Source: an uncultured Flavobacteriaceae bacterium
GTDB lineage: Bacteria; Bacteroidota; Bacteroidia; Flavobacteriales; Flavobacteriaceae
DNA length: 64,000 nt
Reading direction: 5' to 3'
NCBI GenBank assembly: GCA_913043275.1
Contig: CAJWLL010000003.1
Span: 1 to 64,000 of the forward strand
Shown: positions 59,370 through 63,770 of the stretch, one piece after another
Layout of the letters: each line of letters opens with the position of its first letter
Position numbering within the stretch: position 1 is the stretch's first letter
Made by a program: the position numbers and the translations under genes
The notes under the pieces: generated by a model
Seen by the model: the letters and a program-made list of their open reading frames with translations, nothing else
Database searches by the model: none
Told to the model about the DNA's origin: nothing

Positions 59370-59984
59370 TTAAGACAAGCCGATCAATTCGGCATCAATT
59401 TTTTCAATGATTTTACCCAAATCTTCTTTGTTTTCAACAAAATCGATCTGGTCAACGTCAACAATTACCAACTTTCCCTTTTTATAAGTTGAAACCCAAG
59501 CCTCATATCTTTCGTTCAATCGACTCAGATATTCTATACTTATTGAGTTTTCATATTCTCGTCCTCTTTTATGAATTTTATGAACCAAACTGGGAATACT
59601 ACTTCTTAAGTAAATGAGGATGTCTGGACCCTTGACCATAGACTCCATTAATTTAAAAAGGGACTGGTAGTTTTTAAAATCTCTCTGATTCATCAATCCC
59701 ATAGCATGAAGATTAGGTGCAAAAATATGTGCATCCTCATAAATAGTTCGGTCTTGAATGAAGTTCAAATTGGTTTTTTTAAAACCATTTAATTGGCGAA
59801 ATCTACTGTTTAAAAAATAGATTTGAAGATTAAAAGACCACCGTTCCATATGGTTATAGAAATCATCCAAATAAGGATTGTCAATGACGTCTTCAAAATG
59901 AGCCTCCCAACCGTAATGTTTGGAGAGTAATTCTGCAAGACTAGTTTTTCCAGCACCTATATTTCCGGCTATAGCGAAATACAT
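59370..59984 (-). CDS. Deoxynucleoside kinase
   Basis: A 204-aa P-loop kinase of the dNK/dGK family that phosphorylates deoxynucleosides for salvage. The P-loop IAGNIGAGKTSLAELL is at residues 4-19. DRTIYEDAHIFAPNL near 76-90 is the family substrate loop, and YLRSSIPSLVHKIHKRGREYE near 125-145 is the lid with Arg residues. Cytosolic, length as expected. It stands alone between hppA and the methionine operon. Confidence 0.92.
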   Translation of the reverse strand: MYFAIAGNIGAGKTSLAELLSKHYGWEAHFEDVIDNPYLDDFYNHMERWSFNLQIYFLNSRFRQLNGFKKTNLNFIQDRTIYEDAHIFAPNLHAMGLMNQRDFKNYQSLFKLMESMVKGPDILIYLRSSIPSLVHKIHKRGREYENSISIEYLSRLNERYEAWVSTYKKGKLVIVDVDQIDFVENKEDLGKIIEKIDAELIGLS

Positions 59985-60136
59985 ATTAGATTTTTTGTTG
60001 GCAGAAAGATAATTACTTTATTTGTTTTGGTACTTTTTAGATGATTGATTTTTTGTCCAATTATTGGATTTGATTTCCACATCATATCAATATTGAAAAA
60101 CAAACAGATTATTTTTTATATTTAAAAAAATTACAA

Positions 60137-60144
60137 TATATTTG
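60137..60144 (+). promoter_or_regulatory. -7 box for the metK operon
   Basis: TATATTTG matches TAnnTTTG, with transcription expected to start near 60150, at the 5' edge of the riboswitch. This fits an aptamer placed right at the transcript start. Confidence 0.6.
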
Positions 60145-60153
60145 CCACTTAAA

Positions 60154-60203
60154 CGAGGAAGGATTTGACTGATTGCAACCTCTTAAAAAAATGCTAAAGC
60201 AGT
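60154..60203 (+). promoter_or_regulatory. SAM-II riboswitch aptamer upstream of metK
   Basis: SAM-II riboswitches bind S-adenosylmethionine and reduce expression of methionine genes. The sequence follows the compact Bacteroidota/alphaproteobacterial SAM-II pattern: GATTTGACTGATTGCAACC near 60162-60180, A-rich linker, then ATGCTAAAGCAG near 60191-60202. P1 is GAGG (60155-60158) with CCTC (60179-60182). The pseudoknot P2 is ACTG (60168-60171) with CAGT (60200-60203), and GC (60175-60176) can pair with GC (60193-60194). A promoter box lies just before and metK just after. Confidence 0.82.
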
Positions 60204-60233
60204 AGTTGCTTTAAGACGTACTTTGTCAAATCC
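60195..60233 (+). promoter_or_regulatory. Candidate expression platform of SAM-II riboswitch (competing fold)
   Basis: TAAAGCA (60195-60201) can pair with TGCTTTA (60207-60213), loop GTAGT. The 9-base stretch GTCAAATCC (60225-60233) is the exact complement of GGATTTGAC (60161-60169) in the aptamer. Both pairings use bases needed for the SAM-bound pseudoknot, so they would exclude it. The downstream arm lies 19 bases before the metK ATG. Whether the switch controls translation or termination cannot be read; I see no T-tract terminator. Confidence 0.6.
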
Positions 60234-60252
60234 CCAATAAAGCAATACATGA

Positions 60253-61509
60253 ATGTCATATTTTTTTACTTCCGAATCTGTAAGTGAGGGTCATCCTGAC
60301 AAGGTTTCCGACCAAATTAGTGATGCGCTGCTTGATAACTTTATTGCTTTCGACCCTGAAAGTAAGGTCGCTTGTGAAACCTTAGTTACAACTGGGCAAG
60401 CCATACTAGCTGGGGAGGTTAAAAGTCATACCTACCTGGACGTACAAAGCATCGCACGTGAAACCATTAACAAGATCGGTTATACCAAAGACGAATACCA
60501 GTTTAGTGGAAATTCTTGCGGAGTGATTTCTTTGATCCATGAACAATCACAAGACATAAACAGAGGGGTTGACAGAGCCGAAAAAGAAAATCAAGGAGCC
60601 GGTGACCAAGGAATTATGTTTGGTTATGCAACCGATGAAACTCACAACTACATTCCATTGGCATTGGATTTATCACACAAAATACTTATTGAGTTGGCCA
60701 CTCTCAGAAGAGAAAACAAACACATTACTTATCTCCGACCTGATGCTAAATCACAAGTAACGATTGAGTATAGTGACCAAGGGCAACCCTTGCGTATTGA
60801 TACTATAGTAGTTTCGACCCAACATGATCAATTCTTGGATGATGACGAAAAGATGCTCGAAAAAATCAAAAGTGACATTTCAAACATCGCCATACAAAAT
60901 GTAATACAAAAAGAACCTGCTCACATTCAAAAACTATTCAATGAAGATATTACCTATCACATTAATCCTACGGGGAAATTTGTGATTGGAGGTCCTCATG
61001 GAGATACGGGATTGACAGGGAGAAAAATTATTGTTGACACCTATGGAGGAAAAGGAGCACATGGAGGGGGAGCTTTCAGCGGAAAAGACCCTAGTAAAGT
61101 AGATCGAAGTGCTGCTTATGCGGCGAGACATATTGCCAAAAACTTAGTGGCGGCAGGAGTTTCCAAAGAAATATTAGTTCAATTGAGCTATGCTATTGGA
61201 GTGGTAGAGCCAACCTCCATTAACATCAATACTTACAATACTTCCATAGTTTCTCTTTCTGATGCGGAAATTGCCAAAAAGGTCAGCGAAATTTTCGACC
61301 TGCGCCCATATGCCATCGAAAATAGACTTAAACTACGAAACCCCATTTACCTTGAAACTGCTGCCTATGGTCACATGGGAAGACAGCCCAAAGAGATTTC
61401 AAAGGTCTTTGAATCACCCTACAGTGGTAGAGTTGAAAAGACTGTTGAACTTTTTACATGGGAAAAACTAGATTATTTAAATGAAATTAAAAACACTTTC
61501 AAATTATGA
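60253..61509 (+). CDS. metK: S-adenosylmethionine synthetase
   Basis: MetK makes SAM from methionine and ATP. The 418-aa protein starts [21 protein letters not shown], with the GHPDK phosphate motif. [16 protein letters not shown] is near 116-131, the methionine loop; [21 protein letters not shown] near 253-273 and [19 protein letters not shown] near 275-293 are the ATP and core motifs. It is the first gene behind the SAM-II riboswitch, so its own product represses it. Its stop shares ATGA with metY. Confidence 0.97.
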
Positions 61510-62777
61510 GCCTAAAACTAGCAACTAATGCACTTCATGCGGGGCATGACGTGACACAAACGCAGGGAACCAGAGCCGTTCCTATTTATCAAACCTCTTC
61601 TTATGTATTTAATGACTCAGATCATGCAGCCAATTTGTTTGCACTGGCAGAGTCAGGATACATATACACCCGACTTAATAACCCTACCAACGATGTTCTT
61701 GAACAGAGGTTGGCAGCAGTTGAGGGCGGTGTTGCAGCAGTTGCTACCGCATCTGGTACAGCAGCTATTGCGACCACATTCATGACCCTACTTAAGGCAG
61801 GAGATCACATTGTGGCATCCAGCAGTCTCTATGGTGGGACCTATAACATGCTTAACAATACTTTACCTCGATTTGGAATCACTACTACCTTTGTTGACCC
61901 AGACGATGTAGAGAACTTTACAAAAGCTGTACAGCCCAATACAAGAGCATTTTTTGCTGAATCATTGGGGAATCCCAAGTTGGATGTTTTGGATTTAAAT
62001 GGAATTAGTGTCCATGCTAAAGCGGCAAAAGTTCCTTTTATCGTAGACAATACAATTGCTACCCCGGCTTTGTTAAATCCTATTGTCCACGGAGCCAATA
62101 TTGTAATCCATTCACTGACCAAGTACATTACAGGAAATGGAACGACCATTGGTGGTGTCATCATCGATGCGGGAACCTTCGATTATTCCAATGGAAACTT
62201 CCCGGAATTCACTGAGCCATCTCCTTCTTATCACGGTTTGAAGTATCACGATGCATTGGGTCCAATTGCCTTTATCGCAAGAGTAAGAGTAGAAGGCTTA
62301 AGAGATTTGGGAAGTGCCCCAAGTCCGCTCAATAGTTTCCAAGTCATTCAAGGTTTGGAAACCTTAGAAGTTAGAATGCAAAAACATTCAGAAAATGCTT
62401 TGGAAATTGCCCAATGGTTAGAGTCTCGTGAGGAAGTCAGCTGGATAAACTATCCTGGACTGGAGTCTTCTGAATATGCGGATTTAGCTAAAGAATATCT
62501 ACCAAATGGACAAAGTGGAATCGTCACTTTTGGATTAAAAAAAGGATTTGAAGCCGCCAAAAAAGTTACTGAAAGCACTAAAATATTTGCGCTTTTGGCC
62601 AACATTGGTGACACTAAGTCATTGATCATTCACCCTTCTAGTACTACACACTCTCAGTTAAACGAGGAGGAACAAAAAAGTACTGGGGTAACTCCTGATT
62701 TGGTCAGACTATCTGTTGGAATCGAGAACTTGGATGACCTGAAGAACGATTTGGATCAGGCACTTAAGTGTATATAA
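61506..62777 (+). CDS. metY: O-acetylhomoserine sulfhydrylase (MetY-type)
   Basis: This PLP enzyme turns O-acetylhomoserine plus sulfide into homocysteine. The 423-aa protein has [16 protein letters not shown] near 23-38, [17 protein letters not shown] near 54-70 and the Schiff-base Lys in [18 protein letters not shown] near 205. It resembles cystathionine gamma-synthase relatives that use free sulfide. ATGA overlap with metK gives coupled translation. It works with MetX (next gene). Confidence 0.93.
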
Positions 62778-62786
62778 TTTATTTTA

Positions 62787-63770
62787 GTGGCTAAGGTTAA
62801 AACCATATCCATCAATAATTTCAATACCGACTCGGGTATTGTTTATGATAAAATCGATTTGCACTATCAGCACTTTGGACAGTCATTTGAACATGCACCT
62901 GTAGTTCTCATCAATCACTCTTTAACCGGCGACGCCAATGTCGCCGGTCCAAAAGGGTGGTGGAGTGAAATTGTCGGCCCTAATCTCACTATAGATACCC
63001 TTCATTATTCTATACTGGCTTTTAACATACCTGGAAACGGAGCCAATGATTACGCTCTCGAAAATTACAATGATTTTCATACCGGTGATATTGCTGAAAT
63101 TTTTTATCAAGGATTACAGATTTTAGGGATTCATAAACTTTTTGCCATAATTGGTGGGTCAATCGGAGGGGGAATTGCCTGGGAAATGGCTGCTTTATAT
63201 CCTAACTTGACCGAGAATTTAATTCCTGTCGCGGCTGACTGGAAAGCTTCGGACTGGATCATCGCCAATACATTTCTTCAAAAAAGGATATTGGATAATT
63301 CCAGTGAACCCTTAAGGGATGCTAGGATCCATGCGATGCTAACCTATCGAACTCCAGCTTCTTTTAAAGAGCGCTTTGGGAGAACTATCAACAAAGAAAA
63401 AAACTTGTATAATGTTGAAAGTTGGCTCGTCCATCACGGCGAAAAATTAGAGGATCGATTTCTATTGCAAGCATATAAAACCATGAATCATCTTTTAGCC
63501 TCTATCGATATTACACGCAAGGGAGATAGCTTGGAAAAACTCATTGAAACCATATCTTCCGACATACATCTTATAGCCATTGCTAGTGATCTCTTTTTTA
63601 CGGCAGAGGAGGACCAAAAAACTCTAAAAAGGGGAAAAAAAATAAAAGAAAACATTTTCTATCATGAAATAAAGTCAATTCATGGACACGATGCTTTTTT
63701 GATAGAAAATATGAAAGTATCAAAAATTCTTAGTAAAATTTTCAAACCCAATTCAAGTAACCCTCTATAA
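62787..63770 (+). CDS. metX: Homoserine O-acetyltransferase
   Basis: MetX acetylates homoserine using acetyl-CoA, the first committed step before MetY. The 327-aa alpha/beta-hydrolase has the nucleophile Ser in AIIGGSIGGGIAWEM near 126, an Asp in LIAIASDLFFTAEED near 265 and His in IHGHDAFLIE near 298. GDANVAGPKGWWSEIVGP near 49-66 is the family oxyanion loop. Start is GTG at 62787, 9 bases after the metY stop. Length is a little below E. coli-type homologues. Confidence 0.92.
   Translation: MAKVKTISINNFNTDSGIVYDKIDLHYQHFGQSFEHAPVVLINHSLTGDANVAGPKGWWSEIVGPNLTIDTLHYSILAFNIPGNGANDYALENYNDFHTGDIAEIFYQGLQILGIHKLFAIIGGSIGGGIAWEMAALYPNLTENLIPVAADWKASDWIIANTFLQKRILDNSSEPLRDARIHAMLTYRTPASFKERFGRTINKEKNLYNVESWLVHHGEKLEDRFLLQAYKTMNHLLASIDITRKGDSLEKLIETISSDIHLIAIASDLFFTAEEDQKTLKRGKKIKENIFYHEIKSIHGHDAFLIENMKVSKILSKIFKPNSSNPL

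Follow-up and report, generated by a model that had tools for sequence, protein, structure and literature searches.

The locus described here raises the question of how a SAM-II riboswitch can control a metK gene whose start codon lies well downstream of the aptamer, and which strand of the leader would reach that start. The window, i.e. the whole stretch of 64,000 nucleotides that was analysed, carries the following features at this locus:

60137-60290, leader region with the TAnnTTTG promoter element, the SAM-II aptamer and a linker of 45-50 nt to metK
60137-60144, plus strand, TAnnTTTG promoter -7 element (TATATTTG), found as a motif match
60149-60207, plus strand, SAM-II aptamer (RF01726, full model 1-60, E 6.5e-13)
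60155-60182, plus strand, P1 stem, GAGG (60155-60158) with CCTC (60179-60182), from the Rfam alignment
60168-60203, plus strand, pseudoknot strands ACTG (60168-60171) and CAGT (60200-60203), read from the sequence
60253-61509, plus strand, open reading frame of metK, methionine adenosyltransferase (TIGR01034, 504.3 bits, cut-off 309.4)
61506-62777, plus strand, open reading frame of an O-acetylhomoserine sulfhydrylase of the metY type (TIGR01326, 628.1 bits, cut-off 495.1)
62787-63770, plus strand, open reading frame of a metX-like acyltransferase, the probable third gene (best model TIGR01392, 181.8 bits, under the cut-off of 500)

The SAM-II aptamer of the original prediction was recovered by the Rfam covariance model RF01726 with 75.8 bits (gathering score 44); RF00521, the Rfam number named in that prediction, returned no row, and RF01726 is the matching family. 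The pseudoknot claimed between ACTG and CAGT was found at 60168-60171 and 60200-60203. In 49 leaders all eight columns of P1 are invariant, as are C, T and G of the 5' pseudoknot strand and C and G of the 3' strand, with both A nearly so. Judged by its sequence, the aptamer at 60149-60207 is a real SAM-II riboswitch upstream of metK, and it presumably binds S-adenosylmethionine (SAM). It is the only SAM-II found in this 2.0-Mb genome, which is 88% complete.

In 173 of 182 metK leaders, P1 is preceded at a distance of at most 40 nt by the motif TAnnTTTG, which we take to be the -7 element of Bacteroidota promoters, as against 3.6% in shuffles; transcription probably starts a few bases upstream of the aptamer. 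A promoter scan returned four sigma-70-like sites where 2.1 were expected. Divergent from the riboswitch promoter, a deoxynucleoside kinase gene (PF01712, 190.4 bits) occupies 59370-59984 on the minus strand. The genes downstream are SAM/methionine genes: metK and the O-acetylhomoserine sulfhydrylase gene, whose ATG overlaps the metK stop, score above their cut-offs, and the metX-like gene scores under its own. The latter has a GTG start and, being far under the metX cut-off, may encode a divergent homoserine acyltransferase. A second ATG at 60249-60251, four bases upstream of the metK ATG (ATGAATG), lies in another frame, which closes after 12 codons; an extra ATG within the last 12 nt of the leader occurs elsewhere among 47 lineage leaders only in L017. 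Eight named loci have a MetK at least 80% identical, seven of them titled Flavobacteriaceae or a genus thereof, and the closest named MetK relative, at 85% identity, is an uncultured Bacteroidetes. These named relatives mark the group as flavobacterial and point to a presumably marine source bacterium.

For comparison, 207 loci were reduced to 174 distinct metK leaders by removing 16 without an aptamer by pattern, nine without a metK start and eight that were duplicates or contained N; some of the 16 pattern-less loci visibly have an aptamer (e.g. L116, L154 and L175). The family relatives comprised the 30 best loci and 80 further ones among the best-scoring matches listed, a choice in which weak aptamers are under-sampled, and 80 named loci were selected by MetK rather than by the aptamer. 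From the order, 24 of 29 new loci were counted (three were without a pattern match, one without a start and one was of the same family). The lineage alignment has 49 rows chosen by their position in a quickly built metK tree, many of whose forks are open, with L200 of the same genus added; L006, L010 and L025 were included and L092 was left out after the arms had been inspected. The tree covers 47 of the 49 rows, L025 and L200 being absent from it. Outside the alignment stand L204 (arms present, contig ending before the ATG), L116 (aptamer cut) and L047, and the same-genus duplex tests were run without L192 and L201, which contain N.

The following strands downstream of the aptamer, and their partners within it, were delimited:

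60225-60233, plus strand, arm B (GTCAAATCC), the anti-aptamer strand (86.6% of cells paired in 49 leaders)
60161-60169, plus strand, aptamer partner of arm B (GGATTTGAC)
60205-60213, plus strand, arm A (GTTGCTTTA), the putative shared strand, whose partner would lie within the aptamer in the ON state and be arm C in the OFF state
60181-60187, plus strand, partner of arm A preferred by the free model (TCTTAAA, P1 3' strand and linker; 10-nt inverted repeat at 90%)
60195-60201, plus strand, partner of arm A in the original prediction (TAAAGCA), complementary at 7/7 positions to 60207-60213

The competing fold had been described as a 9-bp and a 7-bp stem that nest into one alternative structure, and its elements were found in place. 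Arm B is complementary to 60161-60169 at 9/9 positions, TAAAGCA and TGCTTTA (60207-60213) match at 7/7 around a loop of five bases, and 19 bases separate 60233 from the metK ATG at 60253. Both complementarities thus exist, but forcing the two stems together gave -25.0 kcal/mol against -26.3 kcal/mol for the best fold, a cost of 1.3. The 7-bp stem, although complementary throughout, is not the preferred pairing of arm A in the free model; it is a minor conformer with 0.15 per base of arm A against 0.54 for 60181-60187, which pairs arm A in the lowest-energy free fold. Either pairing keeps arm A within the aptamer. The alternative fold was also said to break P1 and the pseudoknot: its 9-bp stem takes A60168 and C60169 of the pseudoknot and excludes P1 by topology, but shares no nucleotides with the four P1 pairs. 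In the 49 leaders the TAAAGCA stem is paired in 89.5% of cells; on its own it is weak, and 4 of 60 shuffles pair equally well.

In the window, the duplex between the aptamer 5' half and the leader downstream of it has -16.7 kcal/mol, a value reached by none of 60 dinucleotide shuffles; 32% of other genomes' leaders reach it too, as is to be expected of an arm common to the relatives. Over the 174 distinct metK leaders the mean was -14.6 kcal/mol with the own linker, -13.0 with foreign linkers and -9.0 with dinucleotide shuffles; the own linker was better than the mean of foreign leaders in 124 and lay in the best 5% of shuffles in 119. By group, the best 5% held 16/16 leaders of the same genus, 27/31 of the other lineage members and 74/127 of the other family leaders; outside the family, 10/24 leaders of other families of the order also fell in the best 5%. 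For the aptamer 3' strand, 32 of the 174 leaders were in the best 5% of shuffles, and a swap test gave no significant result (own better in 96/174, p 0.13).

Covariation of arm B was assessed with a rule that fixes TC[AG][AG]A downstream, fits 101 of the 174 leaders and compares them with shuffling that makes no correction for relatedness. The aptamer nucleotide at -3 before TTTG is paired with arm B in 70 of the 101 leaders against 54.5 expected (p 0.0002; G-C 32, A-U 31) and that at -2 in 83 against 75.3 (p 0.0002); at -4 no covariation was found (47 against 44.6, p 0.27). On the metK tree, only three contrasts lie on well-supported branches, with 0.8 going the same way, 0.2 the opposite way and 1.9 without a difference. 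Comparison of the leaders indicates that arm B is a repeated feature of the family, with covariation towards the aptamer at two of the three positions that vary. The conservation and covariation expected of the downstream arm thus hold family-wide for the 9-bp arm, but two-sided changes in the 9-bp or the 7-bp stem were absent from the 49-leader lineage alignment, because the aptamer side hardly varies.

Two further elements lie between arm A and the start codon:

60238-60246, plus strand, arm C (TAAAGCAAT), the start-region strand at -15 to -7, complementary to arm A at 8/8 positions and covarying with it
60215-60227, plus strand, small hairpin GACG/TGTC inside the loop between arms A and C, overlapping arm B; it forms in the modelled OFF fold

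The original prediction had the competing fold itself reach the metK start. The strand that does so is another one, which had been overlooked: TTGCTTTA in arm A is complementary at 8/8 positions to TAAAGCAA at 60238-60245, directly upstream of the start codon, and the competing fold would be the ON state, with no action of its own on the start. The earlier interpretation is therefore partly supported and captures half of the mechanism, right in its competing downstream fold and without the start-region arm. Arm C nearly repeats the aptamer strand TAAAGCA and forms a direct repeat of 60195-60204 at 90%. The small hairpin inside the loop is paired in 88.6% of cells among 18 same-genus leaders and showed no covariation in them.

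Across the 49 lineage leaders, 93.6% of cells in the stem of arms A and C are paired; three pairs show two-sided changes (20 cells), and the score is 0.149 against 0.092 (sd 0.010) in shuffles. None of 500 shuffles reached the stem's percentage paired, its number of two-sided cells or its score; one reached its number of pairs, and 67 reached its further pair types. Partners slid along the leader were paired in at most 56.7% of cells. Most of the covariation sits at one pair, and five of the eight pairs are without a two-sided change. The outermost pair is G-C in 20 leaders, A-U in 15, G-U in six, U-A in two and something else in six; among the 18 same-genus leaders, 97.2% paired overall, it is G-C in ten, A-U in five, G-U in one and other in two. 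When leaders were selected only for TTGCTTT after the aptamer, AAAGCAA stood before the ATG in 40 of 45 (38 of 43 distinct). A duplex test between the 14 nt that follow the aptamer and the 26 nt that precede the ATG placed 16/16 leaders of the same genus and 29/31 of the rest of the lineage in the best 5% of mononucleotide shuffles. Among the 127 other family leaders three were in the best 5% with about six expected, so that the stem is absent from them as a group; within the lineage itself it is absent in L002 and L007.

The arms also change together. TTGCTTTG stands with CAAAGCAA as arms A and C in L003 and L014, TTGCTTTC with GAAAGCAA in L026, L029, L030 and L089, and TTTACTTTTTAG with CTAAAAAGTAAA in L011 and L015; the sister genomes L006 and L010, with a MetK difference of 6%, have A-U and G-C at the outermost pair. 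Of 47 rows, 41 form this pair, whereas shuffling gives 31.1 on average and never more than 38 in 2000 trials. On the metK tree the 47 rows require at least 10 changes in arm A, at least 13 in arm C and at least 18 in the joint state, a modest saving over independent change. On well-supported branches there are three contrasts only, about 1.9 going the same way, 0.0 the opposite way and 1.1 without a difference (p 0.5 in a sign test), too few to separate joint change from relatedness. Arm A differs in 18 pairs of nearest relatives; in 14 of these both members retain the base pair, and 11 of the 14 changed both sides, but many share branches and are not independent.

These changes bear on the explanation that arms A and B set expression solely by competing with the aptamer, and that the likeness of arm C to the aptamer strand is due to descent or chance. 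In its favour, arm B covaries with the aptamer and is broader in the family than arm C, with 74/127 other family leaders and 43/47 lineage leaders in the best 5%. Arm C, however, tracks arm A and not the aptamer. At the outermost pair, 39 of the 47 rows have a purine (G or A) on the arm A side and a pyrimidine (C or T) on the arm C side, the other eight having other letters; in these 39, G-C occurs 19 times, G-U five, A-U 15 and A-C not once, and on the tree the two bases of these rows change at least eight and at least nine times, A never standing with C. In L012 the arms read TTGTTTTA and TAAAACAA while the aptamer keeps TAAAGCA unchanged. Pairing of that sort alone, moreover, yields no OFF signal, and we regard this explanation as unlikely. 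The leader rather has a strand predicted to take either the aptamer or the start region as its partner; both pairings are conserved, and two-sided changes were found for the start-region pairing only.

The reading we prefer, with a probability of about 0.7, is that the SAM-II riboswitch shuts off translation of metK, and probably of the two genes that follow, through an exchange of partners by this one strand. Without SAM, arm B would pair with 60161-60169 and arm A would fold back into the aptamer, according to the model mainly with 60181-60187 and less with 60195-60201. The aptamer could then not form, arm A would be kept away from arm C, and arm C would be open to the ribosome (ON). With SAM, the aptamer and its pseudoknot would be locked and arm A freed, so that it would pair with arm C and cover about -15 to -7 before the metK AUG (OFF). 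In this scheme we infer that SAM is bound, in which direction control runs, that translation is the controlled step and that the operon is co-regulated.

Folding with and without aptamer constraints gave the two states. The free fold of the window's leader is the anti-aptamer fold with -26.3 kcal/mol and without P1; in this model arm B pairs the aptamer with 0.95 and arm A pairs arm C with 0.00, so that arm A does not account for the half-closed state of arm C. To mimic bound SAM, P1 was forced and the pseudoknot strands were held open, in an energy model without ligand and pseudoknot energies. The hairpin of arms A and C, itself unforced, then became the lowest-energy fold of the window, and the unpaired fraction of arm C fell from 0.49 to 0.03. 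In 42 of 47 lineage leaders, unconstrained arm A favours the aptamer over the tail. Holding the aptamer lowered the openness of the start region from 0.58 to 0.24 in the 16 leaders of the same genus and from 0.53 to 0.22 in the 31 others of the lineage; for -16 to -6 the drop exceeded 0.2 in 35 of the 47 and did not in 12, and a rise above 0.2 occurred in none. In L002, L007, L012 and L199 the stretch opened slightly, by 0.13 or less. The 127 other family leaders went from a mean of 0.59 to 0.51, with 27 falling and six rising by more than 0.2; since the start region of these stemless leaders also closes a little, a small part of the effect is unspecific. The modelling shows switching to be possible rather than proven, because ligand and pseudoknot energies lie outside the model. 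The fold energy of the whole leader is ordinary (z -1.17; 27/200 shuffles equally good), and the z-score of a single leader was set aside as uninformative.

The stretch masked by the stem lies at about -15 to -6 (medians of the 45 leaders that have it), and arm C covers -12/-13 in 41 of these 45. Adenine stands at -12 in 39 and at -13 in 38 of the 47 lineage leaders. Ribosome profiling in Flavobacterium johnsoniae, a member of a phylum without Shine-Dalgarno (SD) sequences, showed that A at -3, -6, -12 and -13 promotes initiation and that pairing around the start hinders it (PMC6847099). An SD-like tetramer (GGAG, GAGG or AGGA) at -20 to -5 was found in none of the 47 lineage leaders. In the compact metX SAM-II riboswitch the ribosome site lies within aptamer P2 and is occluded directly, which is the textbook translational mode of SAM-II (PMC10907184); here the aptamer ends 45-50 nt upstream of the metK AUG and the SD-like tetramer is missing, and we give this mode next to no credence. 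The arms might instead control mRNA decay, for example if the exchange exposed or hid a nuclease site, and stabilisation by a SAM-II leader has been reported in Sinorhizobium (PMC9373788). Decay control, however, needs no particular place for the masked stretch, which sits at the start region in 45/47 leaders; this explanation appears very improbable.

Transcriptional control, in which SAM binding leads to intrinsic or Rho-dependent termination in the leader or early in metK, would agree with the terminators reported behind many proteobacterial SAM-II aptamers (PMC1273637, PMC2258182) and with a run of seven T at 60261-60267 inside metK, which has a counterpart in the first 30 nt of metK in 23 of the 47 lineage leaders. 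A scan of 59900-60400, however, returned no intrinsic terminator, i.e. no GC-rich hairpin followed by a U run. The hairpin of arms A and C ends at 60246, 14 nt ahead of the T run, and the run consists of the codons TAT TTT TTT (Tyr-Phe-Phe); the first 30 nt of metK are without a run of seven T in 24 of the 47 lineage members and without one of five T in 18. Termination is a quite improbable explanation of the leader, and masking of the start region by arm A is the reading we retain.

A SAM-II match with E up to 0.001 was found in 373 of 397 family genomes sampled (358 above the cut-off), in 19 of 22 genomes of the genus and in 78 of 119 genomes of the order, the window's genome included. The exact platform pattern, which misses variants such as L012, occurs in 17/397 family genomes and 10/237 genera; in the class it was found in 1/395 genomes, the window's own. 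The 127 other family leaders keep arm B and lack the start-region stem as a group, and a start-region partner for any arm or the aptamer was no more frequent in them than in shuffles (eight and five in the best 5%). By eye, some of them (e.g. L146, L155, L156 and L173) have arms that resemble CTTCTCTAGC and GCAATC and show complementarity to the aptamer. Among other families of the order, 7/24 leaders were in the best 5% of the duplex test with different sequences, and start-region masking may therefore have arisen or persisted more than once. In L214, L216, L217, L229, L212 and L210, unrelated sequences after the aptamer pair with the stretch before metK, as exemplified by TATTCTTT in L214 and by the pre-metK partner AAAGAATA, which suggests the same design in other letters.

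SAM-II aptamers were also seen ahead of other genes. In L009, L034, L048 and L069 the downstream gene is of the queF type (TIGR03139 preQ(1) synthase with 92.2 bits, cut-off 86.9, for the L009 protein; the others similar by eye), and in three of the four the pseudoknot or junction is changed (ATTG or AATTG, AAACCAG or AAAACAG); with these alterations, the ligand or the role of the queF-associated SAM-II could be different. In L020, L040 and L072 the aptamer directly precedes an O-acetylhomoserine sulfhydrylase-like gene (by eye) and is accompanied by a GTCAAATC arm, with no start-region copy seen by eye. In L067 it precedes a gene for a DUF6580 membrane-like protein (PF20221, 175.8 bits).

Coupled to initiation in an SD-less phylum, a SAM-II riboswitch would offer a natural means, under ligand control, of probing the upstream requirements of the Bacteroidota ribosome at the AUG. 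Altering the pairing at -15 to -6 with the adenines left intact would separate the effect of sequence from that of structure, a question left by the published account of F. johnsoniae (PMC6847099). The arm rules moreover yield predictions for many genomes, given a SAM-II match in 373/397 family genomes.

Riboswitches with an anti-aptamer and a sequestrator generally use one strand to choose between the aptamer and the initiation region. The platform proposed here would follow the same logic, but its target is the region of the -12/-13 adenines in an SD-less phylum, and arm C nearly copies an aptamer strand. The SAM-II platforms described in the texts consulted act through terminators or SD occlusion, in proteobacterial and metagenomic examples (PMC1273637, PMC2258182, PMC10907184, PMC9373788). 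The SAM-II variant with long loops, RF01726 from Bacteroidetes and marine sources, has the same aptamer sequence, P1, pseudoknot strands and met gene context; in the text consulted, additional files aside, no expression platform was found for it (PMC2864571), whereas here a three-arm platform appears to follow the aptamer. With the compact metX riboswitch our candidate shares the SAM-II aptamer and, as proposed, translational OFF control; in that system the ribosome-binding site is occluded directly in P2 (PMC10907184), whereas here the start lies 45-50 nt downstream, without an SD, and a separate shared strand would do the masking. The SAM-II leaders of metA and metZ in Sinorhizobium meliloti likewise control methionine genes through alternative folds, metA by sequestration. 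There, the SD is sequestered or a Rho-independent terminator is used (PMC9373788), whereas here both are missing and an A-rich start region would be masked.

A SAM-II platform for Bacteroidota was not found in the open-access texts consulted; the supplementary data on the long-loop variant (PMC2864571), the phylum figure of PMC2258182 and subscription papers lie beyond this scope, and any claim of novelty is limited to those texts. We consider it fairly probable that this is a SAM-II platform for SD-less bacteria, in which a near-copy of TAAAGCA stands before the start codon, one arm chooses between the aptamer and the ribosome landing site, and the -12/-13 adenines are masked. At least two designs would then share the same aptamer in the family, the start-region stem in a lineage of mostly small genomes and the anti-aptamer arm without that stem elsewhere. 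Set beside the known systems, the locus appears to join a known aptamer to a seemingly undescribed, comparatively well supported translational platform that is independent of SD sequences.
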